From Deroplatys truncata (lineage: Eukaryota; Arthropoda; Insecta; Mantodea; Mantidae), in the NCBI GenBank assembly GCA_030765065.1, contig CM060980.1, positions 60,682,364-60,746,363 on the forward strand: a stretch of 64,000 nucleotides of DNA, written 5' to 3'. The position numbers and the translations under genes are program-made. This document shows, in pieces, positions 4,106-64,000 of the stretch. Within the stretch, counting starts at the first letter, position 1, and each line of letters opens with the position of its first letter. The notes beneath the pieces are model-generated. The model was not told the origin of the DNA. It saw nothing but the letters and a program-made list of their open reading frames with translations, and searched no databases.

Positions 4106-5264
4106 TGAGGCAGTATGTTTAACACCTCAATGATTTCTGTCTAATTATATAATATATAAATTCAATAACAGCCCACCTTAAAGCAATATGTGTATGTAAC
4201 AAGATATAAAAGGTATATATTTGAAATGATATATTTGTTATTAGTTGGTAGTTGGAAGATGCTTCATGTTGATATGCCCCATGTATGGAAGCCAATTTGT
4301 CGCAGTCACTTCGTGTTATCTTATTGCTGGGCGCCTGTTATTTCCTAACAATGCTTATAATTAACAAACATCTCAAATCAATGTCATACAATAACGCTTA
4401 TTTACACTACAATCACTCTGGCATTTACATTATTGTGATACAAATTTCTGCCACATATTACAGTCATTGTTTATGTTTATATTATTGTATACATGTAATA
4501 ATGTTATGTGAATGTATTACATAATTTAATAATGTAAGAGCTGTGAGAATAATAGGTTAAAAGTTGCTAACAATGAGGTAATAATGAGGTAACCTTGAGG
4601 CAATAATGAGTAAGAAGGATTAATAATGCTATTAGTAATTTTTGGGGCAACAATAATGTAAATTTTGAGACAGTTTATAAATAGCCAATCATCAACCAGA
4701 AAAAAACTTAAGTTAAGTAAAAGTATTCTATTGGACTAGGAATAGGCAATGAGAGACTTAAAATAAAGCAAAATTTACAAATTCAGAAGGCAGTTGCTTG
4801 CAGACAGCGTTACTAACCAGACACGAGATGAGTCCTCGAGAAATTTAAAACGTATTTTTGTGTGAGACAAAAATAGTTTACGCTAAAAAGTGCAAGTATT
4901 TAATAAAAAAATCTCACAGCTCTCTATATCAGTGAAGTTTTATTTAAATCCTGTCAAGCATTAATAAAAGGAGTGAAGTAAAGTTATAATTTGTGTAAGC
5001 CTACATTCTTCAGTCGCACCACTCCCTGCTAAGACATTCATGTCTCTAAACAATATAAATACTGACGCAGCCAAGACAAACATAAATATATAATATTTAA
5101 AGAAACAGTCAAAATTAAAAAGTTAATATTTTTTAAACATTTGGGGCAAAGGCCACCGGAAACTACATTTAGGGCGAAGCTACCGGAAACTTTGTACCAT
5201 ACGTGCGGTTGTAACTAATTCAAGTTCGGCTCCCTAACATTTGAACTACAATATAACTACTTCA
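4106..5264 (+). mobile_element. Family B solo-LTR-like element, target duplication CTGT
   Basis: The element starts TGAGGCAGTA, ends CTACTTCA, and is flanked on both sides by CTGT (4102-4105 and 5265-5268), as expected for an LTR retrotransposon insertion. Promoter-like parts lie in the middle: TTTATAAATAGCC near 4675, CCAAT boxes on both strands within the next 100 bases, and AATAAAAG near 4965 as a possible polyadenylation signal. The 3' fifth has GGGGC(A/G)AAGG(C)CACCGGAAAC-like repeats. No internal coding region or second LTR is present. Confidence 0.75.
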
Positions 5265-25771: not shown

Positions 25772-26356
25772 AAAACCTTTGCAGAAATAGCTAAATTACA
25801 TATTTTGTTATAAATACAAAGGGAACAGCGATACTCAAGTGTTTATAAATAGGAGGCTATATGCTGGCGCTAAAATTCCATAGTCTTTCCATGCAATCGC
25901 GAAAAAGAACTTATTCCACAGGACGCTAAAAGAATGACGAAGTATTGAACAATGCAAACCATTAATAACGAATATCTCGGAAATGACTGATACGACAAAA
26001 AGGTTATGAAATAATTTGTGTGTTTTAAATAGATATACTTTTTTTGTAGTACGTTTCCGTCTATCGCTTAACGTTTACCAGTTATACAAGATTGCAAAAA
26101 ATTGCTTCCAAATGAAGTGGACTTCACAGGTTACAAATTATTCCCAGAAAATTCATGATATGGATTTTATTTGTCATGTAAGTACCTTTAATATATAGTA
26201 TATTAATCAAAATTCTTAGAGCCATTTTCAGAAAAGTTTGATATTTATCCGACTTATCGTTTTTGAGTTATGCTATTCACAGAAACACACACATGGACAC
26301 ATGCCTGCTTTATTGAGAGGGTCTTAAAACATGAAGTTTCACTGAAATCTCCATCT

Positions 26357-27392
26357 TGCAGTAGAATACCTTTACGTCATTAGCACCAGGCTTTGGGCGC
26401 CAAACTTGAAGTTGTTTAATTGTTGTGGTTGCACCACGTATTGCGGGAGATATGTTTCTTGGAGTATTCGTCCCACGTACGGTACAAACGTTCCGGTGGC
26501 CTTTCCCCACGTTTGCTTTTCCGGTAGCCTTCGCCTCCACGTTTACTTTTCTGATGGCCTTCGCTCCACGTTTAAAATTTAATTTTTATTTTAATGTTTC
26601 TTTAAATATTATATATGTATGCCTCGGTTGCGTCAGTAGTAATTTTCTGAACACGTATCTCTTAGCAGAACTGATGTAGCTAAAGAATGAAGGCTTACAC
26701 AAATTATGATGGTATTTAACTTTGTTTTATTAATCTTTCACACGATTAAATAACATTTCACTGACGTATACTACTGTAGAGCTGTGAAATTATTGTTAAT
26801 TGTAGTTTTAAACACGTACACTTTATATTATTCTCACCGCAATAAATGTTCATGTCTCACACTGAACCCATATCATATCTAACTGACTGCTTGGGTACGC
26901 TATCTTGTAGCGTCTACCGCTTCAATTTGTATATTTCCTCTATATCAAGTCTCTTTTTGCCTAAGCCTACTCCAATAAAATACTTTTAATTTAACTTTAA
27001 CTTTTTCTAGTTTTTGATTGGCTATTTATAAACTGTTTTAAATATTATATTATTGTTCCAAGAATTATTAGTAGCCATTATTAAACTTTCTAATTTATGT
27101 TGTCTTAAGGTTACCTCATTGTTAGCAACTTTCGGCTTTTACTTTGAAATTCTGTTTGCTACGAAAAGCAGCTTGCTTCTATTCTCACAGCTCCTACATT
27201 GTTAAAACTACTTAATATATTCACATAACATTATTATACATGGACATAATAAAATAAACATAATACAATGACTGTTACATGCACTTTATATATTATATTA
27301 CATATATACATATTGCTTTAAGGCGGGCTGTTATTATATTTTATACTATATCATTAGACTGATATCATTTAAGTGATCAAAATAATGTCTCA
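26357..27392 (-). mobile_element. Family B solo-LTR-like element inside family A
   Basis: On the minus strand it begins TGAGACATTATTTTGAT and ends CTACTGCA. Flanking tetramers ATCT and ATGT agree at three of four positions. The 3' part holds at least three tandem units around ACGTGG(G)G(C)GAAGGC(C/T)A(C/T)C(G/A)G(A)AA and a GTTTGGCGCCCAAAG motif near 26395, which resembles a gypsy-type primer-binding site. There is no internal region or coding sequence. Confidence 0.75.
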
Positions 27393-27589
27393 ATGTCGAA
27401 TTTTTGGGTGGAATGCAATATACCTACTATGTACGTGGTAGTGAAAGTAAAACTTGTTTTGAAAGTGCTAAAATGTGCAATACTAAGCGTCCTGGTTTAG
27501 GGAACCAGACACAGGCCAACGTATTTCTGATTTTATATTTATTTTTTTCGTTTAGTGTTACTTAAAGGATTTTCGAGAATACACCACAC

Positions 27590-28570
27590 ATTTTATATAC
27601 GCATAAAAATTGTCCGGCGGCGCCGTGGCTGAGTGGTTAGACCGCTCGCCTCCCACCGATGCGGCCCGGGTTCAATCCCAGGGACCTGCATGTGGGATTT
27701 GTGGTGGACGAAGCGGCGTCTGGGCGGGTTTTCTCCGGGTTCTCCGGTTTCCCCCGCCATTCATTCCACCCACTGCTCCATCATCACCTTTCCTTTCATC
27801 CATTTCACCACCATTTCGTTTCATCTACTTCCGTCATCCCATACCAGGCATCGGGCTGATCACCCATCCTGGATGCTCTGTCTGATCCATGAGTGTCTGT
27901 TCCTCGACGGGCCTCTGACCCCAGGCACCCGCTTGTAAGTCCTGGGGGGTGTAAGTCCTATATAAGAGGAGGGTAAACAGATAATGAATGAATAAAAATT
28001 GTCCAATCCCCTAGATCACCATAGTGCTTTCCCTTCGGAAGGTTTCCATCAAGTAACCAACTTTTGACTCCAACCAGCCTGTATCAGTTCTCTATATGAC
28101 TGGCCTGAAAAACCACACAGGTTCATACAAACTAATGAACCACTATGGAAGAGTTTCACAACGATTGGTACACAAGGAAAGGCTAAACCAATTACTTCTA
28201 GAGGAATGAATGAAGAATATTTTCGTGTGTGGTTAAACTAAGCGACAGCTCGACATCTAGATATATGAGAGCTTTCATCAGCGAGACGAAGGTTAAAGTT
28301 GTAGCCGTTACTAAACGGCAACAAGAAAACCGGCATTAAGAAAACGGCAGTGTAGCATGAAAATATAAGGTTTATGTTGTAAATTTACCTTTCAGAAGTT
28401 CGGCAATACTTTGTGGGAGGTAAAGTACCCTGCCAGTCTACTGACGAGAATTATGCTCCATAAACAGTGGTGGTCACGCCAGTAGTAGATGGTGGGACTA
28501 GATTTTGTCAGTACAACATTAACAGCTCCGTTCCATTATGGGCCACGTTTTATACACGCCAGTATACATA
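27590..28570 (+). mobile_element. Family C DNA-transposon-like element, split by a SINE
   Basis: Without the SINE insertion this copy is about 590 bases. Its right end, read inward, starts TATACTGGCGTGTATAAAAC followed by GTGGCCCATAATGG. The left end, TATATACGCATAAAAATTGT, is a decayed inverted counterpart. The interior matches the minus-strand copy at 46415-47080 along its length, including TGGTACACAAGGAAAGG and ACTGGCCTGAAAAACCA. No transposase frame is visible, so a non-autonomous element is most likely. Confidence 0.65.
27616..27991 (+). mobile_element. Complete tRNA-headed SINE with perfect 13-bp target duplication
   Basis: The head GCCGTGGCTGAGTGGTTAGA (A box, tRNA-Ser/Leu-like) is followed by CCCGGGTTCAATCCCAGGG (B box), a GC-rich body with CCGGGTTCTCCGG, and an ATAATGAATGA tail. 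ATAAAAATTGTCC occurs exactly on both sides (27603-27615 and 27992-28004). It is inserted in the left inverted repeat of a family C element. The overlapping Pro/Ser-rich frames are artefacts of the SINE body. Confidence 0.9.
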
Positions 28571-29385
28571 GTAGATAGAGGAGGTAGCTATTGATTCCAC
28601 TAAAAAATTCGATAACGATATTTCAATAGAAATACATGTTTTGAGGCCTCCTGAATCCCAAAAGAGCATTTTTAAAAAAGGTCCGTATGTGTGTCTATGA
28701 ACAGCATAACTCAAAAACACAAAGTCGGATAAATACCAGACTTGGTATCTTCCAAAGATGCTGTATGAAGATTTTCAGGAAAATAAACCCACCTCCAACT
28801 ACCCTTTATATGGAATATTTGTCGAAATTTTTTATTTTCTAAAACATGACTATTGATTTTGATTAAATATCATATATTGAAAATGTCTACATGTAAACAA
28901 AATGTATATCTTGAATTTTCTGGGAATAGCCTGTGAGGCCCTGTTCATTTGGAAGAAATTTTGTATAATGTTGTTTGACTGGTAAACGTTAAGCGATAGG
29001 CGAAATCGCACCACACAAAAAATGTAGATCTCTATAAAACAAACGATTTACTACAAATAACTTTTTGTGGCGTAAGCCATTTCCGAGATATTCGTTATTA
29101 ATGGTTCCAATTGCTCTATACTTGTAATTATTTTCAAGCCCTGTCGGCATTCAGTTGTTTCTCGCGATTGCATGGAAACAGTGTGGAATTTTAAGACGAG
29201 CATATAACATCTAGTTCTTGAACATCTAACTATCGCTGTGCTTTGTATCTATAACGAAATGTGTAATGTAGCTATTTTTGTAAAGTTTATTTCGATTATA
29301 ATGAAGTAGACAGAAAAATAAAATTTTGTTAGAGTAGACAGAGGGTATAATATGTCATGTAAATGTAACACATCAGATTTTTAAC
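28568..29385 (-). repeat. Family A copy, near full length
   Basis: On the minus strand it runs from ATCTGATGTGTTACATTTAC (29385) through GCAATCGCGAGAAACAACTG, AAAAAGTTATTTGTAGTAAA and ATTTGTTTACATGTAGACAT to the AATTTTTTAGTGGAATCAAT end next to family C. Confidence 0.8.
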
Positions 29386-30637
29386 CACTGGCAGCTCTTT
29401 GTGTTTAATTTTGGTCGCACATTTGAACATACTCTCTCTCTCTTTAATTAGGTTAGATCAGAAATGCTATGTTATAACAAACGTTTGAAAAACCCATACG
29501 TGTCAAAGTCTATGTTACAAAAAAATGCCACAAGAGAGAAAGAACAACCTGTTAAACTCCACACAGAGGCGCCGCTATTTCACACATGTCTACATACGGT
29601 CTCTCTTGCACACATGTGGATAAATCCAATCCCAGGCACCAATTAATTAACACCCTCGGAGAGCAGGCCTACCTCTCAACCTCCCTTACCCTTTGTGCGA
29701 AGCCCACCCCCTGATTTCGCAATACCAAGTCCCACTCCACAATACTACTAATCATCACTGGCAATACTGTAACCAACCCTTTCCCGCTGCCACCCCGGAC
29801 ATTTTCCATCGCTGTATCAATACGCGCCGTACAAAACAGATTACTTCATTATTAACCCGAATGTATAGGGACTCCAAATGTTTTTGCTGCGAGAGTGTGT
29901 CGAGATGGATCGCATTTTTTTTTCCAGGTATAGATGGAGAGGGATAGGACGCAAACAAAAGATAATCATAAAAAGGGGAAGCATTGGGAATGTTAAATGA
30001 AGCGCCAGACAGGACGTTAAAATCAAGGTAATAAAACGTAGCTCCCTGTCGGACGTGTTGAAGTGTTATGTATTGGTTGCACACAGCACAGAGTTGTTTG
30101 TTTTCCTGTATCGCTCACCGCGATTGAGACAGCTGAGGAATTACAGAAACAAATACCATTCCCATCACGGGAAACAAATGATGCTTCTCTACAAATGGAA
30201 TACAAGTGAAATGACACACACTTGCTATTTTCTGGGATCGTGATAAAGAGGAGCAGCGCCATTCTGTGTCAATATGCTTGACTAAAATTATCAAGCGCAT
30301 ACGAAATGTTCTATTCTCATAATGTAAAACTAAGTGTAATATAACGTAAATTTTCTCAAAAAGCACTAAAGCTACACACATTATATTTTGCAGTACTTTT
30401 ATGGACAATGCATGTTCAAAAAAGCAATAAAAATTTGTTTTAAATAAAATATAAATGAATTTAAATCAGAATCAAGAAAGATAATACACATTAGTATTCC
30501 TGCTAAATAAATTAATAGTAATACATAGAAGAATCAAAATCTTAATGATATAAGCACTATACTAGTGCTATAAGTTTGTTTTAGGTGTTTTATATACCAG
30601 ACATAAATTTTCCTGTTTAGATCAAATGGTTTTCTAA
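29386..30637. other. Unassigned sequence with several short frames
   Basis: Less AT-rich than its surroundings, with overlapping frames of about 60-109 codons on both strands (for example 29755-30084 minus). Frames open on both strands over the same bases suggest composition rather than coding. I recognise no family. Confidence 0.35.
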
Positions 30638-37094: not shown

Positions 37095-37520
37095 AGAGAC
37101 CTAACTGAGCGGTACCGCAGCGATGCCAGAGAAGCGTAAGCCCCCGCCCAGCCACAACCCGCCAAACACCGTCTTCTGGTCCTACAACCTTGAAACAAAT
37201 GACAAGGAAGATGATGAGTACGGGAAATGAAAGGAAGGAGAGTCGTAGTAGATGAACCACCCCAGAATTCGCCTGGCGACCCGGGTAAGCGTAAGCCCCC
37301 GCCCAGCCACAACCCGCCAAACACCGTCTTCTGGTCCTACAACCTTGAAACAAATGACAAGGAAGATGATGAGTACGGGAAATGAAACGAAGGAGAGTCG
37401 TAGTAGATGAACCACCCCAGAATTCGCCTGGCGACCCGGGTAAATCCGAAAAACCCATGGACCAGAGTGGGTTGTCACCGAATCGAACCCGGGAACTCCT
37501 GAATGCGGACCTGACCTCCT
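37095..37520 (-). mobile_element. SINE with a 155-bp internal tandem duplication
   Basis: The minus-strand head near 37465-37515 has GAGCAGGAGGTCAGGTCCGC and GGGTTCGATTCGGTG (B box). The shared SINE core (CGCCAGGCGAATTCTGGGGT) and a T/C-rich body follow. The body occurs twice, at 37134-37288 and 37289-37443, with one base different in the part I compared (AAAGGAAGG against AAACGAAGG). The long Pro/Gly-rich frames here are reading frames of this duplication. Confidence 0.75.
37134..37443. repeat. Two tandem 155-bp units
   Basis: GCGTAAGCCCCCGCCCAGCC starts each unit, at 37134 and 37289. The near-identity implies a recent duplication compared with the age of the other repeats. Confidence 0.9.
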
Positions 37521-41265: not shown

Positions 41266-42236
41266 TGAAGAAGTTGGATGTACGTTATTAGCCCCAAGTT
41301 TAGGTATGCCAATTTGGAGTAGGTTGTATTGTAGTTCCACTGCAAATTTGATGAAGTAACTGCCCCGCGTATGGTACAAAGTTTCTGGTGGCCTTCGCCC
41401 CAACGTTCACTTTCCGGTGGCCTTCGCCCCAACGTTTAGGAATCAACTTTGTGTTTTTATGTTTCTTTAAATATTACATATATTTATGTTTGCCTCGGCT
41501 GCGTCAGTATTAATTTGTAGAAACATGTATCTCTTAACAAGGGGTGATGCGGCTAAAGAATGTAGGCTTACACAAATTATAATTTTTACTTCACTCCTTT
41601 TATTAGTCCTTCACACGATTAAATAACACTTCACTGATATAGAGAGCTGTGAGAATTTTTTATTAATTGCACCTTTTAACACGTAAACTTTAATTTTATT
41701 CTCGCCGTAATGAATCTTCGTCTCACACTGAATACGTATTGAACTTCTCGAGAACGCGTCTAGCGTCCGGTTGGGAAAGCTGCCTACTAGCAACTGGCGT
41801 TTACCGCTAAAATTTGTAAATTTCGCTATTTCAAGTCTCTGATTGACTAATTTGACTCCAATAGAATACTTTTATTTCACTTTCAGCTTTTCTGGTTGTT
41901 GATTGGCTGTTTATAAACTTTTTTAAATATTACATTATTGTTTCAAAGAATTTCTAATAGCATTATTAAACTTTCCAATTCATTATTGCCTCAAGGTTAC
42001 CTCACTGTTCGCAACTTTCAGCTTCTATTCGCACAGCTCCTACATTATTAAATTACGTAAAACATTCACATAACATTATTACACATGTACACAGTAATAT
42101 AAACATAATACAATGACTGTTATACAATACGTTTTTATATATTGTAGTATACACATATTGCTTTAAGGCGGGGCTGTTATTTTTTTTATATTATATAATA
42201 GACTGAAATCATTTAAGTGTTAAAAATACTATCTCA
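41266..42236 (-). mobile_element. Family B solo-LTR-like element
   Basis: On the minus strand it begins TGAGATAGTATTTTTAACAC and ends CTTCTTCA. The flanking tetramers ATGC and GTGC agree at three of four positions. It has TATA- and CCAAT-like motifs near 41890-41930 in the expected place. Near the 3' end are two tandem ACGTTGGGGCGAAGGCCACC units (41390-41440). Confidence 0.75.
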
Positions 42237-44225: not shown

Positions 44226-44295
44226 CAAGAAGATCAGTAAACTATTCTTAAGCGATGCAATGCTTAAAAGTGATGGATAACAATAAAAATGTTTT

Positions 44296-45185
44296 AAAAA
44301 AATCTGATGCGTTTCACTCACATAACTTTATTCTTGTACAAACTATTTTTACAAACGCTTATTCTCCACATGCTTCATGTTAATCGAGATATCGAGATGT
44401 TAATCTTATTGCTAATTTTCTTGTAGATGCAAGGGGAATTGGTAGGCTTTAAGCGATAATCAAATATTTTAAGAGCTGGTTGCTATGTGGAGTATTCCAT
44501 TCTCTTTGCATTACCAGGACAAAAAACGTCTTATGTGTTACACTCACATGACTTTCTCTACTCTTGTATAAACTATTTTTACAAACGCTTATTCTCCATA
44601 TGCTTCATGTTAATCGAGATGTCAATCTTATTGCTAACTTTCTTGTAGGTGCAAGGGGAATATGGTAGTATTTAAGCTATAGTCAAATCTTTTAAGAGCT
44701 GGTAGCTATGTGGCGCATTCCATTCTCTTTGTATGTCCAGGGCATAAAATAATCTCATGTGTTACACTCACATCACTTTCTCTACTCTTGTACAAACTAT
44801 TTTTACAAACGCTTATTCTCCATATGCTTCATGTTAATCGAGATACGTTATTGCTAATTTTCCTACAGATGCAAGGGGAATTGCTACGCTTTAAGCAATA
44901 GTCAAATATTTTTAGAGGTGGTTGCTATGTGGAGTATTCCATTCTCTTTGCATTACCAGGACAAAAAAAAAGAATAACGAATTTGGAAAAAGTATAAGTA
45001 TTGGAAAATTTAAGGGAATAACAAGCAATATCTCGAAAATGGTTCTCCCAACAAATAAAATGTATATAACATAAATTGTGTATTTTAACGCGATCTACAT
45101 TTTTTGTGTAGTAAAATGTTGTCTATCTCTTATGGTTTACCAGCTATGCAAAAGTCATTCACAATGAAGAATACTTTTGGAGACT
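44296..45185 (+). repeat. Family A2 copy with its 5' module present three times
   Basis: Three head-to-tail units of about 225 bases (44296-44520, 44521-44743, 44744-44970) each run from an ATCT.ATG.GTT(A)CACTCACAT start through TTTTTACAAACGCTTATTCTC, GATGCAAGGGGAAT and CTATGTGGAG(C)TATTCCATTC to a CCAGGACAAAA-like end. The last unit continues into the rest of A2 (AATATCTCGAAAATGG, GCGATCTACATTTTTTGTG), which stops after TTGGAGACTTTGG at about 45185. The copy at 61810 has only one such module. Confidence 0.85.
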
Positions 45186-46414: not shown

Positions 46415-47080
46415 TATATTAACATACACGAAATGTGGCCCATATTGGGACGCAGCTGTTTATGTTCGTACTGACACTCACTCTCTGCCAGTGCGACTTC
46501 CTCTGTTTTTCGAGCATTATTGTAATCACTGGATTGGTAGTGTACTTTACCTCCGCCAAAATATGACCGAAGTGCCGAAGGCTAAGATTGTAACCTAAAC
46601 CTTCTATTTTCAGGCTACAATGCCGTTTTCTTAATATCGGTTTTCCTTTTCACGTTCAATAGCGGCAATAACTTTAACTTTTATTCATATATCGCTGATA
46701 AAAGCCCTCATGTATAATTTACTATATCGCTGATAAGAGCCCGCATGTAAATGTCGTACCTGCCGTCCAGTTTAACGACACATCCAAATAATTCTTCAAC
46801 CCTTCCTCTAGAAGGCCGAATTATGTTGTATTGGTTTCGCCCTTTCCTTGTGTACCAATCGTAGCGAAACTCTTTCATAGAGGCGGTATCCGAATCACCC
46901 CTTCATTTGATATCCATTATAACCTCATTCATTGATTCGTTGGTTTTTCAGGCCAGTCACATAGAGAGCTGATATCGGCTGTATGGAGCCAAAGATTCTG
47001 AAGGTGGAAACCTTACGGAAGGAACAACACTATTGCGATCTGGGGGGATGGGCCACTTTTTATGCGCGTTAGTGTACATA
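46415..47080 (-). mobile_element. Family C DNA-transposon-like element
   Basis: Inverted ends are visible: read inward from the left, TATATTAACATACACGAAAT then GTGGCCCATA; from the right, TGTACACTAACGCGCATAAA then GTGGCCCATC. The interior matches 28005-28570 in the opposite orientation. A 38-base segment with TATCGCTGATAA(A/G)AGCCC is duplicated in tandem at about 46685-46755 in this copy only. No transposase frame is visible. Confidence 0.7.
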
Positions 47081-47179
47081 CCAGAAATTGTTGACATTGC
47101 TGTTTTTGTGCAATGCTCCATTCTACCCTTCAAAATGTCTACCACGGAAGATATTACAACGGATCATCATCAACAACTT

Positions 47180-48184
47180 TGAGGCAGTATTTTTAACGCT
47201 TGAATAATTTCAATTAAATTATATAATATGTAAATTCAATAACTGTCCGCCTTGAAGCAATAGTAATAATTTATAAAAATGTATGTAACAGTCATTACAT
47301 ATGCTTATATTATTGTAAACATGTTTAATAATGTTGTATGAATGCATTACGTAATTTAATAACTTAAGAGCTGCGAGAATAATAAGTTTAAAGTTGCTAA
47401 CAATGAGGTAACAATGCGGTAACCTTGAGGCAATAATGAGTTTGAGAGTTTGAATACTACTAGTCATGATTAGGGCAGCAATAATGTAAGTTTTGTAACA
47501 GTTTAAAAAATAGCCAATCAAAAGCCAGAAAAAGCTTTAGTAAAATGCAGGTATTCTATTGGACTAGGATTAGCCAATCAGAGACTTGAAATACAGAAGT
47601 TTGCGGGTTTGGACGGCTGAAATATGTTCAGTTGCCTGCAGACCTTGATAGTGGCCGGATAGAAGACGCGTTCTCTTGAGAAATATTACGTATTCGTGAG
47701 AAACGAAAATTAAGTGTACGCGTTAGCGAAGTACAAGTATTAAATTAAAGAATCTCACAGCTCTTGATATCAGTGTAATGCTATTTAATTTGTGTCAAGG
47801 ATTAATAAAAAGAAGTGATTTAAAACTTAAAATCTGTCTAAGCCTACATTCTTGTCGCACCACGCCCTGATTAAGAGAAACGTATCTCTAAACCAACACT
47901 GACGCAGCCGAGGCAAACATAAACATAAATAATATCTATAGAAACAGTTTAATAACAAAGTTAATAAATTATTTTTAAACTTGGAGCGTAACAACAAAAA
48001 TACATCTTCAAATCAGCTTTTCATACGTAGCAGCATATTACGTAATAAACAATCTTCTTCAAATTGGCTTACCAAAGCGTGGTGCAAAATCATCAACAAC
48101 AGTAACTCCTACATCTTCTTCAAGTTGGCGCCCAAACGTGGGGCTAACATAAAAACAATTACAACAAAATAAACACCTTCTTCA
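47180..48184 (+). mobile_element. Family B solo-LTR-like element, target duplication ACTT
   Basis: It begins TGAGGCAGTATTTTTAACGC, ends CTTCTTCA, and is flanked by ACTT at 47176-47179 and 48185-48188. The 3' fifth contains three diverged tandem units ending TTGGCTTACCAAAGCGTGG, and CTTCAAGTTGGCGCCCAAAC then GTGGGGC near 48118-48145. The last resembles the primer-binding site region of gypsy-type elements. There are CCAAT boxes near 47510-47580 and AATAAAAAG near 47802. Confidence 0.8.
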
Positions 48185-48188
48185 ACTT

Positions 48189-51112: not shown

Positions 51113-51454
51113 AAGTGAAGGTGCTATGTCCATTAGTGAGGTAACGCTAAACAGAACCGCGCTTCTTTTATACTGCGAATTAGACGCAGTGAATCGTTGG
51201 TTTTCACAATGTGCATAGCTTCCTAACACTAGATGTGGCTTCCGAGACCCGAACTAAATTACGTATTTCTGCATTTAGTCAGGAGCCTGTTGCATAGTAG
51301 TTTGCAAAACTATATTGTCAGTAACATGCTTGAAATTCTTAGTTTTTAAAAGATTTGCAGGGCAAAATAGTTCTAAGGGGACTTAAAATGATGATTAAAA
51401 ATCTTGAAATTCTCAAGTGAATGTTTATAAGGTTATAGCGGTTACGGCACTGTT
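51113..51454. other. No recognisable feature
   Basis: Short unassigned stretch between a SINE and a MITE. Confidence 0.4.
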
Positions 51455-51824
51455 ACACAGGATGGGTGGACCATTTAAGTTGAGACTGTACAATATCTGT
51501 AAAACTAAGCGTTGTAGAAACAAATGTCTTTATTACAAGTTGCTTGATACTATAGGGAAAAGCAAATGGCATTAGTCGTATTTTGTTTGTAGGACGTTAG
51601 GATGGTCATTTTAGTCAATTTATTCTTTTTAAAATGGGAACCTAAAATTAGAGTCAATTTAAATTCACTCTAAAATGACCATCACAACGTCCTGCAAATA
51701 AAACACAACTAATGTCATTTGGTTTCCCGTATAGTATCAAGCACCTTTTATTCAAAAACTTTCTTTCTACAATTCTTAGTTTTGGAGATATTGTACAGTC
51801 TCAACTTAAATGGTCCACCCTGTA
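51455..51824. mobile_element. Foldback MITE with about 165-bp terminal inverted repeats
   Basis: The left arm (about 51455-51622) and right arm (about 51655-51824) are inverted copies of each other. Shared blocks include GGTGGACCATTTAAGTTGAG, ACTGTACAATATCT, TTGCTTGATACTATA/TGCTTGATACTATAC and GATGGTCATTTTAG. Only about 30 bases separate the arms, so the DNA is nearly a perfect hairpin. The outermost bases read CACAGG(AT)GGGTGG and ACAGGGTGG, next to TA on both sides, which suits a Tc1/mariner-type MITE. No coding sequence remains. Confidence 0.85.
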
Positions 51825-51845
51825 TATTAGTGCATTAATAAAGTC

Positions 51846-52184: not shown

Positions 52185-53508
52185 ATTTTTATTCTTTTTT
52201 AATTTATTATGATCAATCAGCATTACATACTTTACAGATCTTTGTGAACAATAGAACACAAATAAATGATTATTAACACTTAAGGAAGGCCAAAATGGCT
52301 CCTTTTAACTATAAAGTATGGGTAAAGTGATACATAGTGAGGCAGTATTTTTAACACTAAAATGATTTCAGTCTAATTGTATAATATATATAATTCAATA
52401 ACAGCCCACCTTAAAGCAATATGTGTATGTAACAATATATAAAAATGTATGTAACAGTCATTGTACATGTTTGTATTATTGTATCCATGTGTAATAATGT
52501 TATGTGAATATATTACGTAATTTAATAATGTAGGAGCTATGAGAATAATAGGTTAAAAGTTGCTATCAATGAGGTAACCTTGAGGCAATAATGAATTTGA
52601 AAGTTTAAATGGTACTAGTCATTATTGGAGCAACAATTATGTAAATTTTGAGACAGTATAAAAATAGCCAATCAACAACCAGAAAAAGCTTTAGTTTAAA
52701 TGAAGAAATTCTATTGGATTAGCAATATCCAATCAGAGACTTGAAATACAGAAATTTACAAGTTTAGGCGGTTGAAATCAGTTCAGTTGCCTGCAGACAG
52801 TGATTGTAACCGGATGCAAGATGCGTCCTCGAGAGATTTAATACGTATTCGTGTGAGACAAAAATTAAGTTTACGTGTTAAAAAGTGTAATTAATTAATA
52901 AATAGAATCTCACAGCCCTCTATATCAGTGAAGTGTTATTTAAATCGAGTCAAGCATTAATAAAAGGGGTGAAGTAAAATTATAATCTGTGTAAGCCTAC
53001 ATTCTTGTCGCATCACAACCCTGCTAAGAGAAACATGTCTCTAACAATAATACTGACGCAGCCGAGGCAAACATAACTATTTAATACTTAAAGAAACAGT
53101 CAAATTACAAAGTTAATATTTTTAAATTTGGGGCGAAGGCTACCGGAAACTTTTTACTATACGTGCGGTTGCAACTACTTCAAGTGTTTGGTTCCCCAAC
53201 AGTTGAAATATAATACAACTCCTTCAATACAACATCATCAAATTTACGCCCAAAGCCTGATGCAAATAACGTAACAATACACCTACTTCAAATAGGCTTC
53301 CATACGTGAGACAACAATAAACTTTCTCAATAGTAATTAAAAGTGATTCTCATAGAGAAAATTGGTGTAGTTAGTGATCTGAGTAATCGGAGTTACTGAG
53401 TAGGAGGGACTGTCGTACTTGTCTCTTCAGGCGTGTGAGCTGGTGGATGTGTACAGCTCCTGGAACGTCTGGCAGTTGTGAGAAGAAGCGACCGGCGATC
53501 ATACGTGT
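52185..53508 (-). pseudogene. 5'-truncated retrocopy of a host-gene 3' end, split by a solo LTR
   Basis: On the minus strand the insert starts at 53508 with an open frame of about 44 codons that reads TRMIAGRFFSQLPDVPGAVH, then IHQLTRLKRQVRQSLLL and SNSDYSDH, followed by a stop near 53374. About 190 bases of apparent 3' untranslated sequence follow (53334-53373 and 52185-52333), with an AATAAA signal near 52203 and an A-rich end. GTTCAAGAAC (52175-52184) and GTTTAAGAAC (53509-53518) flank it as a target duplication. A truncated 5' end, polyadenylation signal, A tail and target duplication are the marks of a processed pseudogene made by LINE machinery. The coding part is clearly GC-richer than its surroundings. 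I do not recognise the parent protein. A family B element sits in its 3' untranslated region. Confidence 0.65.
52338..53329 (+). mobile_element. Family B solo-LTR-like element, target duplication ATAG
   Basis: It begins TGAGGCAGTATTTTTAACAC, ends ACTTTCTCA, and is flanked by ATAG at 52334-52337 and 53330-53333. It has TATAAAAATAGCC near 52660, CCAAT boxes and AATAAAAGGGG near 52960. The 3' part holds GGGGCGAAGGCTACCGGAAA and an ACGCCCAAAGCCTG unit. It interrupts the retrocopy, which interrupts family A, so it is the youngest layer of this nest. Confidence 0.8.
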
Positions 53509-53792
53509 GTTTAAGAACTGGAGGCTATACGCTGGCCTTAAAGTTTCATAGTGTTTCCATGAAATCACGAGAAACAACTAAATATTGACAGGACTTTAAA
53601 GAACGTAGAGTAAAAACTGGAAAGAAGATGCAGTGAAACGACCAAATAACAACCAGCTAAAATTTCCAGAGGGATACCGAGGCCAAGGAAGAACAGTAAA
53701 GTACTCTGAAGGCCGGAACAGGCCATAGCCTACACCTCTTGGTAGGTGAAAACATAATGATTCAAAATTACTACAAATTATCAGTGGACATA

Positions 53793-54325
53793 TGTTTACT
53801 TTCTCTACCACGTACATAGTAGGTAAAGTAGGTATTCATTCCACCCAAAAATTCGATATCGAGATTTCACCGGAAATACGTGTTTTGAGGTCCCCTGGAA
53901 AAATGTCGGTGTGTGTATCTGTCTGCGTCTGTAAATAGCATAACTCAAAAACAAAAAGTCGTATAAATACCAAACTTGGTATTTACGTTCAATATCTTCC
54001 AAAGATGCGAGAGGAAAACTTTAAACAGATTCCTCTATTCACAAACTACCCCTTACATGGAACACTTTTCGAAATTTCTGATTTTCTCAAAAATGACTAA
54101 CGACTTTTATTAAAATAGCACATATTTAATGTATTTATTGTATGACAAATAAAATGTATATCTTGAATTTTCTGGGAATAGCTAGTGAAATCCCCTTTAT
54201 TTGATTTGTATAAATTTCTATAACAGAAAACCATAAAGGATAAGCAAACACTTACCCGAGAAGAATTGTAGAGCTCATTAAAACGCAGATTTTGTGTTTA
54301 ACAACTTTTTCGTAGCGTTAGCCGT
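53793..54325 (-). repeat. Family A copy, 3' two-thirds
   Basis: The left edge is TTTACTTTCTCTACCACGTA, the inverse of the family A end, followed by CCCAAAAATTCGATATCGAG, CATAACTCAAAAACAAAAAG and TCTTGAATTTTCTGGGAATA, ending near TTTTTCGTAGCGTTAGCCG. Confidence 0.8.
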
Positions 54326-54567
54326 TTTATTGTCATCTAATAGCATGCATGAAGATGTGCGATCTTCCTTTGTTTCTTTATTTTCATCGTCAGCGCTTGT
54401 TACTACGAATGAAACATTTGGTTTACATTGAAAAATCAGTTTACTGTGATTTTTATTTATTTTTAAGAAATCTGTGCTGTACAGTATAGTTGTAGAAAAA
54501 ACAAAATTAATTTGAAACATGTGTTTGAGTTGTTACCCACTGGAATCCCAAAGTATATTTGCTGTCA
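54326..54567. other. No recognisable feature
   Basis: AT-rich spacer between family A and the Jockey-type element; the LINE 3' untranslated region may lie here but no tail is visible. Confidence 0.35.
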
Positions 54568-56873: not shown

Positions 56874-58154
56874 TCTATACGTGCTAAATCTCTCACTTAG
56901 AAACAATTAAAAGGAGTCTTTGCAGAAACTCGACTGTTGATGCTGATCTCGTGTAGTTTGGGTACTTTTAACATTTCACTGATATTATTAGTAAGGTGTT
57001 GACTTGCGCGCATTATTCGCTAGAGTACGTTTTAAGTTGTATTTAGTAGATTTCCTCTGACAAAATGATAAAAATCGAGCACTAGGTTTGGTAACACTTT
57101 TGTCTTTCTTGCAATGTAGGGTAGGAATGTCAAATCTATCTGGACTAGGCAACGATCTAAATTTCCTACTGTGATTATGTCAGGGTAGGGTATGGGAGTG
57201 TTGAGAGCAGGATATTGTCTTGAAAGAAAGGCTGTTTTCACCTTTCTCACTCCGGCGCGTCTTTTGTTAGAAATCCTGCAAGATTCTGTGGTTTTCTCTA
57301 ACACGTGCAATTCTTTAACAATGTCTTCCCACTATTATCTGTTGGTCCACTAACGTTTGCTCCGGCTAATTATTTAACATTTTGGTGCTCTATCACCGTT
57401 CCTTAGATTCGCGCGAACTTGAAGTAGCCACTTGACAAATACTAAATCGTTATATAATCTTGCATAAAAAGTATCTCAACGAATACTATCAGCACATTAC
57501 ATAAGTATTCCACAGATATACCTTATAGTTATTATAGTTATATAGTTGCGCGGCACTTAGCAAATTTCGGAACTTAGCGTCCTTTTGTAACTCGAAATAC
57601 TACGTGTTCACTTAACGAAGACTCGTGACACATTGTGTGAAATCCACGCTTACGTTTACATATATAAACTCACTACTAGCCTCCGGATTTTTGTACATGC
57701 AACCACATCTTCCTATCTTTTCATTGCTTCTAACAATTATCCTGTATAGTTATTGGCTCTCTGGTTGAAAATTCGATGCCGAAACGGTAAGAAATAACCG
57801 TTGCCTACAGCGTCTACTTTCTCTTGAAACTTGGTTCTTCCCCTCGAAGTACAAAGAAACTTTGGATTTTTATGGCCCCAAGCTCGGAAAAATACAATGA
57901 ACATTTTGAAGCGAAGATACTCTATTTCACCTAAATTTTACGGATTTTCTTACGCAATTACGCCTTTATTTATTGGACAACATTAATGAAACTTAAAACA
58001 TATTTACACCTTTTAAAGGGCTCTTGGTTGATTTAGTGTGTAATACAGTTACTTTAAAACTGTTGAAAATTATCAAATTGCGTTTTAATTAATAATTTGT
58101 AATTCATAGACTATAATTATTTAAGGGTTCCTTTTTGTACAGGTGTAATCAGAC
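56874..58154. other. Unassigned sequence
   Basis: A minus-strand frame at 57032-57310 (92 codons, with ALNTPIPYPDIITVGNLD) is unidentified. It lies upstream of the Jockey-type element on the same strand, so it might be a remnant of that element's 5' part, but I see no endonuclease or zinc-knuckle motif. Confidence 0.35.
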
Positions 58155-61809: not shown

Positions 61810-62605
61810 TATGAAAAATGTGACGTGCTTCACTCAAATGACTTTCTCTACTCTTCTACAAATCATTTGAAAAACACTTATTCTTCATCTGCTTCATGTT
61901 AATCCAGATAAATATTTTCTGAATATATCTTATTGCTAATTTTCTTTAGGTGTAAGTGGAATATGGTATGCTTTAAGTGATAGTCAAATCTTTTAAGAGC
62001 TTGTTGCTATGTGCAGCATTCAATTTTCTTCGCATGTCCAGGACATAAAAAAGAAATGACGAATTCCCACTTGAGAAAAAGTGTATTGAAAAATTCAAAT
62101 AAATAACAAGGAATATCTCGAAAATGGCTCCCTTGACAAAAAAATGCATGGGACATAAATTGTTTATTTTAACGAGATCTACATTTTTGTGAAATAAAAG
62201 TTTGTCTATCTATTACGGTTTACTAGTTATGCAAAAGTCCTCTTCAGAATGAAGACAAATTTTGGGGACATTCCCAGAAAATTCAAGATATAAATTTCAA
62301 TTACCATGAATACATATGATATTTTAATCAAAATCGTTAGAGCCAGCTTTGAGAAAATCAAAATTGTCGAAAACTTTTTCATGTAAAGTATAGTCTAGAT
62401 TGGGGGAATTTTCTTGAAAATCTGCGTGTCGCATTCTTGGAAATACTATACTCAAATACCAAGTTTGGTATTTATCGACTTTTCGTTTTTAAGTTATGCA
62501 AAGACACACACATTTGGATTCAAGGCACCTCAAAAGAAATCTCGGTATGGAATGTTTGGTCGAATGCAATACTTCCCCTACTTACTATACGTATTAGAGA
62601 AAGTA
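61810..62605 (+). repeat. Family A2 copy, near full length
   Basis: Has a single 5' module (GTGCTTCACTCAAATGACTT to CATGTCCAGGACATAAAA) followed by the A2 order AATATCTCGAAAATGG, GAGATCTACATTTTTGTG, GACATTCCCAGAAAATTCAA and the end GCAATACTTCCCCTACTTAC...GAGAAAGTAAAA. This is the reference for what the 44296 copy would look like without the tripled module. Confidence 0.8.
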
Positions 62606-63256
62606 AAAATAGAAGTAGCTAGCAAGTTATTTCCCTTAAGTTATTTACTTTAATTAAGCTGTTTCTGTATTTTAACATTTTTCCCGTTACTCGCTATTTT
62701 TAGTAATTTATGGGAGCTAACCCATTATCGTCATATGGTATCTCACCCTACCCTTCACACAACGTTCAGCGCCTCTGCGTCACAATGTCTCAATAATGTG
62801 GGCTACTAGAACAAAATCTCTCCTTTTATATGAAAATGCCACGACGCGCAAATTCGCGCCAATAATTCTAACGACAGTTTTCATTGATGCTTTACATAGT
62901 ATTGTATGAGAGTTCAATCGCTCGTATTTCTGCTGTCAGCTTCTTGGTGTCATGTTTGGAGTAGACAGATTCCATTGTTTTCTTACCTTATAAATCCAAT
63001 CTGCCTACTTGTAAGAAAAGAATACTTTATTAAATAAAATTTAAGCAGTGGGTCAATTTTCACAAAATCCCGAAAAACACAAAATGAAAAAAAATTTAAG
63101 TAAAACTTTCCAAAATCATATATCTCCACCTCTTTCAGAGCTCGGCCCTCTCTCTCATACAAACTGTCATTTCTACAAGTCCCTGTGCTGCTACTGGTAT
63201 CTTTGAGAATTACATGCTATTTCTGTATCTTTCCCTCGTCGGTCCTCTCTTTTATA
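62606..63256. other. Unassigned sequence
   Basis: No frames or repeats recognised. Confidence 0.4.
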
Positions 63257-63634
63257 TAGGGTAGTTGAATTATATTCGAACCCACTCGCGACCTCTCTCT
63301 ACTGCGCGAGACAGCCGGCAGTCGCCGGCGAAATTACGCCGACAGAGGCGGACTAAAATCCTTACCTTATAATAGATGCTGTTGTTATTTATGGAGTTCT
63401 TTAAAAGATAAAGTGTATCGTTTCAATCCTCGCACACTACAGGAACTTAGAGAAAACATTGTGTAGGAAACCACAAGAATTCCTGCTGCTGAGCTTCGGA
63501 ATGCAAGCGAGAATATTTACACGAGATATGCGGCCTGTTTGAGAACAGAAGGCGTAATTTCCCCGGCGACTGCCGGCTGTCTCGCGCAGTAGAGAGATGC
63601 CGCGAGTGGGTTCGAATATAATTTAACTACCCTA
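63257..63634. mobile_element. MITE with 84-bp GC-rich inverted repeats and a transposase tail
   Basis: The arms 63257-63340 and 63551-63634 are inverted copies with only a few differences, starting TAGGGTAGTT and containing TCGAACCCACTCGCG, TCTCTCTACTGCGCGAGACA and GCCGGCAGTCGCCGG. TATA-type sequence flanks the ends, compatible with a TA target duplication. The plus-strand interior (about 63416-63545) translates as YRFNPRTLQELRENIV, a stop, then ETTRIPAAELRNASENIYTR and YAACLRTEG. This matches the C-terminal pattern of mariner/Tc1-like transposases (TL.ELK..I...I..IP...L......N...R...C....G). It is an internally deleted derivative that kept the last part of its transposase. Confidence 0.85.
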
Positions 63635-64000
63635 TACAAGCTCTTACTTTTACCAACCCCCTGTGCTGCTAAAATCCAGATGCTAATTACTTTACTTGCT
63701 AGCCGCTTTTCCAAATTTACCATTTTTATTCCATATATAGTTATAATGTTATATTACGTGTTATATAATAATATTTAAAATATTTCTGTTATATACACTG
63801 TTCTATTTTCTTATTTTCCCCTCTTTACTATATATTCTTTGCTATTTGTTTCCCTTCCAGTTTATTACCATATCTGATTACATAAATTACAGTCGCTTGT
63901 GCGTTGATTATGGGGTGGGTGTTCTCCTACACTTGACACTATATTGTAAATGCTTATGCCGTTTTAATCTGTTACAATCTGTCCTCAGGTTTGAAGTAGT
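63635..64000. other. No recognisable feature
   Basis: AT-rich sequence to the end of the window. Confidence 0.45.

Follow-up and report, generated by a model that had tools for sequence, protein, structure and literature searches.

The long terminal repeat (LTR) at positions 47180-48184 of a 64-kb stretch of Deroplatys truncata DNA (contig CM060980.1, positions 60,682,364 to 60,746,363; hereafter "the window") carries, between its own two ends, a tandem array of units that each join a copy of the LTR's 3' end to a sequence resembling the primer site for tRNA-Lys(CTT). This LTR belongs to a family whose members end at different unit boundaries. We consider it somewhat probable that the array preserves, as fossils, successive junctions between 5' LTR and primer site, laid down as the start site moved outward and lengthened the LTR.

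Self-comparison of the window identified a single repeat family with five copies, and a profile search with filters off found no sixth copy in the window. We refer to the copies as c4k (4106-5264, plus strand, 1159 bp with its insert at about 4215-4453), c26 (26357-27392, minus strand, 1036 bp, nested in another repeat), c41 (41266-42236, minus strand, 971 bp), c47 (47180-48184, plus strand, 1005 bp) and c52 (52338-53329, plus strand, 992 bp). All five have TG...CA termini and begin with TGAG (TGAGGC in c47, whose 3' end is CTTCTTCA), and an AATAAA polyadenylation signal lies inside the LTR at the equivalent aligned position in every copy. Pairwise identity is about 67 to 80% over the longest matches of the self-comparison; all five copies are old. 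A 4-bp target site duplication (TSD) flanks each copy, exactly in three cases (CTGT for c4k, ATAG for c52, and ACTT at 47176-47179 and 48185-48188 for c47) and with one mismatch in two (ACAT/AGAT for c26, GCAC/GCAT for c41). The copies look like solo LTRs, since each has its own target duplication. For the same reason we rejected c47 and c52, which lie on the same strand 4.15 kb apart, as the LTR pair of one element, and we found no internal region between LTRs of one element in the window.

To see whether the array lies inside the LTR, we compared the four bases preceding TGAG with the four bases following each CA in 500 nt around the 3' end (31 to 37 CA sites per copy). For c4k, c47 and c52, an exact duplication occurs only at the proposed end. 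The duplication of c41 has one mismatch, yet its proposed end is the single best site, while the one-mismatch duplication of c26 is tied with two other sites. The 3' limit of c26 is nevertheless settled, because this copy is a nested insertion with a visible empty site: the match to the host repeat breaks off at 26354 and picks up again at 27388, a sister copy of that repeat at 53.8 kb is uninterrupted, with ATAT at the insertion point, and four of eight further host-repeat copies tested also align across it. Thus, judged by the target duplications and by the nested insertion of c26, the array is inside the LTR. This agrees with an earlier note on this DNA, which had described c47 as an LTR-like unit bounded by a 4-bp duplication, with a primer-site-like motif inside it about 60 bases from its end; the motif, TGGCGCCCAAACGTGGGGC at 48126-48144, begins 58 bases short of the end.

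Each unit of the array opens with CTWCTTCA, the sequence that ends the LTR itself; after about 3 nt comes a stretch resembling the tRNA-Lys(CTT) primer site, followed by an A-rich spacer (unit limits were set by hand). In c47, unit 1 (48003-48053) has the LTR-end-like sequence CATCTTCA followed by a decayed stretch, unit 2 (48054-48114) has CTTCTTCA, the primer-site-like TTGGCTTACCAAAGCGTGGTGC and a spacer, and unit 3 (48115-48176) has CTTCTTCA, AGT, the motif TGGCGCCCAAACGTGGGGC and an A-rich spacer. The terminus of the LTR, at 48177-48184, is identical to the starts of units 2 and 3. Alignment of units 2 and 3 gives a score of 47, and 500 shuffles reach at most 30, bearing out the claim of the earlier note that the motif has a diverged tandem relative, in this case one unit upstream. 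Unit 1 is weaker, its alignment score of 26 with unit 2 being reached by 6 of 500 shuffles. The other plus-strand copies are c52, with three units (53175-53232, 53233-53282 and 53283-53321) and the terminus CTTTCTCA at 53322-53329, and c4k, with one unit (5215-5256) and the terminus CTACTTCA at 5257-5264. On the minus strand, c41 has unit 1 at 41323-41360 and unit 2 at 41274-41322, and c26 has unit 1 at 26415-26467 and unit 2, TGGCGCCCAAAGCCTGGTGC, at 26365-26414. A further junction-like match at 57413-57427 was set aside, there being no primer site after it.

The copies do not all stop at the same place in this array. c4k, c26/c41 and c52 terminate at three successive unit boundaries, such that the terminus of one copy is internal in another: the last unit of c4k matches the third-last unit of c52, the last unit of c26 matches the second-last unit of c52, and the point homologous to the c4k terminus is internal in both c41 and c52. 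In each case, the LTR end falls at the junction motif. The earlier note had overlooked both these differing ends and the fact that the units begin with the terminal sequence of the LTR.

We scored the array against a panel of 29 tRNA 3' ends, with two Lys entries among them. In the accessible part of PMC1084362, the Lys-CTT 18-mer appears as the primer site for Lys1,2. Unit 3 of c47 matches the Lys-CTT site at 18 of 18 bases, apart from one additional A. In the sum of the five LTR tails (for c26, 102 nt of the 238-nt tail), Lys-CTT ranks first with a score of 46, followed by Lys-TTT with 34; in 300 shuffles of the tails, the Lys score rose no higher than 27 and the top score of any tRNA in the panel no higher than 32. 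The observed Lys score was reached by none of 300 shuffles for c26 and c47 and by one for c52, and the match in the c41 tail is moderate (12 of 300). Lys-CTT is the best tRNA in c26, c41, c47 and c52 and for 7 of the 11 units (in one of the seven, the probability by chance is 0.1); the match in the only unit of c4k is weak. The sense strand of the five tails makes up 0.8% of both strands of the window and holds 6 of the 13 window-wide Lys-CTT matches scoring at least 7, 9 of 29 scoring at least 6 and 10 of 55 scoring at least 5. The LTR bodies contribute none to these counts. As controls, the reversed 18-mer gave one match on the tails at each threshold (7, 6 and 5), and the antisense strand of the tails gave 1, 4 and 5 matches. 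We conclude that the tails hold more matches to Lys-CTT than chance would supply.

Within a copy, the Lys-CTT score climbs strictly toward the LTR end in all four multi-unit copies (0, 7.5 and 16.5 in c47; 3, 5 and 7; -2.5 and 7.5; 6 and 11 in the others), a pattern expected about once in 144 under random order. A switch of primer tRNA among units is possible. For the first units of c4k, c41 and c52 taken together, the summed scores are 11.5 for Lys-TTT and 11 each for Glu and Asp; Glu and Asp each score 8.5 against c52 unit 1 on its own, a value reached by none of 300 shuffles, c4k unit 1 scores 5.5 with Lys-TTT (chance 0.04), and c41 unit 1 matches nothing (0.74). As no single tRNA stands out, we do not claim a different primer for the oldest units.

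Upstream of the primer-site units, the same U5 (unique 5' region) contains 27-30-bp repeats of CGAAGGCCACCGGAAA, which are a separate minisatellite. The earlier note had listed arrays at 5150-5200, 26440-26560 and 41390-41440, containing CGAAGGCCACCGG and CGGAAAC units, as relatives of the primer-site array. The strings exist, the last two on the minus strand, but they belong to the minisatellite and bear no convincing likeness to a primer site. It is present as a 27-bp repeat in c4k (5137-5191, plus strand, upstream of the primer-site unit), as 2.9 copies of a 30-bp repeat in c26 (26491-26574, minus strand) and as two units in c41 (41390-41440, minus strand, with the coordinates of the earlier note). 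Tandem Repeats Finder located the c26 minisatellite and, at a minimum score of 40, did not report the primer-site array of c47. Minisatellite and primer site have ACGTKGGGC in common. Nevertheless, we do not claim the minisatellite as a primer site: Lys-CTT is best for none of the five stretches tested (P0), the best sums are with Phe and Gly, and the best-match chances in the five copies are 0.08, 0.63, 0.27, 0.52 and 0.04. Nor do we claim a second stretch, P1 (TTTGTACCATACGTG...), whose best sum is with Leu-TAA (24) rather than Lys-CTT (16.5); its best-match chances in four copies are 0.04, 0.42, 0.17 and 0.58, and Lys-CTT ties for best in c26 only. Separately, the insert of c4k (4215-4453, about 239 bp) has a primer-site-like stretch on its minus strand at 4276-4295, with a score of 10.5; its 25-bp match to unit 3 of c52 is not significant (E 0.12).

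During reverse transcription, the U5 of the 3' LTR derives only from the 5' end of the RNA, and the 3' end of an LTR is the base adjoining the primer site that was used. Since the array is inside the LTR, it was therefore upstream of the primer site used. Our inference as to how the duplicates arose, where priming took place and how events were ordered is as follows. The leader would gain a tandem duplicate comprising the LTR 3' end CTWCTTCA, the tRNA-Lys(CTT) primer site and about 30 nt of A-rich leader. If priming then took place at the downstream copy, the first cDNA would cross the older primer site and the older LTR end on its way to R (the terminal repeat of the RNA), and the new LTR would end one unit further out with the older primer site kept in its U5. 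No longer needed there, the older site would decay, and further rounds would produce LTRs with one, two or three units before their end. The terminal CTWCTTCA of each unit presumably reflects an integrase requirement, which would explain why whole junctions, rather than bare primer sites, are repeated. From the five copies compared, we suggest more tentatively that the 3' boundary of the LTR may not be fixed in this lineage: it could be set at each replication by whichever tandem junction in the 5' RNA is primed, so that LTRs lengthen, and could shorten, junction by junction, and U5 would be a record of past primer sites and perhaps of past primer tRNAs.

Several observations weigh against a moving junction. 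The chief difficulty is the extra A, common to five of the seven units for which Lys-CTT is best, which ought to disappear when the tRNA serves to renew the primer site; short primer sites occur in this superfamily, and either only the first bases of the site might be renewed or some units might have been copied within U5. Moreover, the end of c47 is ambiguous as to unit boundary, its last unit aligning with those that close c41 and c26. Both points speak for the main alternative, in which a junction entered U5 on one or a few occasions and its units were then multiplied or reduced by slippage in reverse transcription or by unequal recombination, with the primer site unchanged and the ends differing through loss of terminal units by recombination between the 8-bp repeats. 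The neighbouring minisatellite, which varies from part of one copy to about three across the LTRs, indicates that slippage or recombination is real in this U5. We regard this alternative as a serious one but rather unlikely, given that the last units of c4k and c26 correspond to the third-last and second-last units of c52, the LTR in both stopping at the junction motif, and that recombination between diverged units of 40-60 bp should often produce chimeric units.

Other explanations seem less probable than loss and gain of units. The tRNA-complementary sites might be under selection, either as extra annealing sites that help to recruit the primer or as decoys for fragments of tRNA; such sites recur from copy to copy, and in HIV-1 the selection of the primer is influenced by contacts of U5 with the tRNA, according to the accessible part of PMC1084362. 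However, in all four multi-unit copies the match to the tRNA is poorer in the upstream units, and we judge selection improbable. The leader is the expected place for a primer site, so the real LTR might stop before the array, in which case the array would be leader and the five copies would not be solo LTRs. The earlier note had named this case; it is made very improbable by the empty site of the nested copy and by the flanking duplications, which enclose the array in every one of the five copies, with one mismatch each in c26 and c41. Finally, the likeness to a primer site could be due to chance or to an antisense insertion derived from a tRNA. The c4k tail is at chance level (67 of 300 shuffles reach its Lys score), and Lys-CTT is not best in 4 of the 11 units (the first unit of every copy except c26), which match it poorly, as do P0 and P1; these points also count against the moving junction. 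With matches enriched in the tails and Lys-CTT first of 29 tRNAs, we give chance hardly any credence. The same applies to a tRNA insertion: by eye the match ends with the 18-mer, no tRNA gene was found in the window, and no Rfam family reached gathering score there, in a search that a decayed tRNA could escape.

It is usual to regard the LTR ends and the primer site as a junction that stays fixed, and copies that end at different repeats would record that junction moving, a simple route to LTR growth. A movable boundary, if real, might be among the causes of the long LTRs with repeats found in some gypsy lineages, and such boundaries could be misplaced by programs that look for the primer site solely beyond the LTR. 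We recognised no description of primer-site arrays inside LTRs in the literature searched; subscription papers fell largely outside that search, and we do not claim absence from print.

We compared the family with the Osvaldo lineage of Ty3/gypsy, with which Ulysses is reportedly grouped. LTRs of about 1 kb or more, a tRNA-Lys primer and mostly 4-letter duplications are found in that lineage (with woot), as far as the accessible part of PMC3286476 shows, and the window family resembles it in these respects. In Culex, that part gives Osvaldo LTRs of 997-2055 bp, a primer site that is always tRNA-Lys, and duplications of four letters in 9 of the 12 table rows seen, five in two and six in one, the lineage of the first two rows not being visible. 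The window LTRs (971-1036 bp in four copies, 1159 bp with the insert in c4k) are at the lower edge of this range. Their decayed sites matching tRNA-Lys(CTT) lie inside the LTR, whereas the criterion for Osvaldo is the site adjoining the 5' LTR, and the active site is outside the window. Unlike Osvaldo elements, the window copies have no internal region and hence no placement in a pol tree, and decayed junctions inside the LTR go unmentioned for the lineage in the accessible part of PMC3286476. Hence, for a family known from solo LTRs alone, LTR length, tRNA-Lys and 4-bp duplications suggest Osvaldo kinship as a lead, not membership. A disturbed junction of LTR and primer site also occurs in cqgypsy_1, an Osvaldo-lineage element of Culex quinquefasciatus, in which, per the same part of PMC3286476, 26 nt of the 5' LTR occur again as a direct repeat in that region; there the repeat flanks two whole head-to-head tRNAs, whereas the window family has no inserted tRNA and its repeats are inside the LTR. 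Helenus terminal-repeat retrotransposons in miniature (TRIMs) have a tRNA-like promoter sequence in their LTRs, and the animal members have 4-bp duplications (PMC10886601, accessible part). The window LTRs are similar in having tRNA-related sequence inside the LTR and 4-bp duplications, but that sequence is only the complement of a tRNA 3' end, repeated at the LTR end. We rejected Helenus membership for want of a tRNA-like promoter, judged from the searches noted above, in which no tRNA gene or Rfam family came up in the window and which a decayed tRNA could escape. Retroviral vectors built with two primer sites are said to initiate at either site; those are engineered, whereas the window LTRs are natural.

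Exact patterns of the LTR family had no relative in viral or prokaryote contigs, where none was expected. One exact match to the bare primer site, in a G+C-rich viral contig filled with long open reading frames (ORFs) and with no adjoining LTR (L001), was taken as chance. A TCAGTT motif, which we take to be initiator-like, is found at LTR positions 507 (c26), 449 (c47) and 441 (c52), similar places in three of the five LTRs; the copies show no consistent downstream promoter element.

The window is A+T-rich, with few long ORFs and many old repeats, and its five ORFs of at least 120 aa had no match in Pfam. The repeat split by c26 belongs to a family of about a dozen copies of roughly 500-800 bp detected by self-comparison, including 2346-2918, 25773-26354 with 27388-27451, 28565-29391, 53759-54327 (minus strand) and 62121-62630. 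At 37132-37443, there are two tandem copies of a 155-bp unit; since these are 99% identical, the repeat is probably much younger than the others in the window. Three tandem 224-bp units, about 83% alike, occupy 44295-44971 and are related to 61814-62272. Two stretches of about 400 bp, 51442-51838 and 63252-63639, are self-complementary, being 78% and 66% identical to their own reverse complements. A third repeat family is represented on opposite strands by 27992-28550 and 46431-47063, which are 67% alike, and ends about 110 bp upstream of the c47 LTR.
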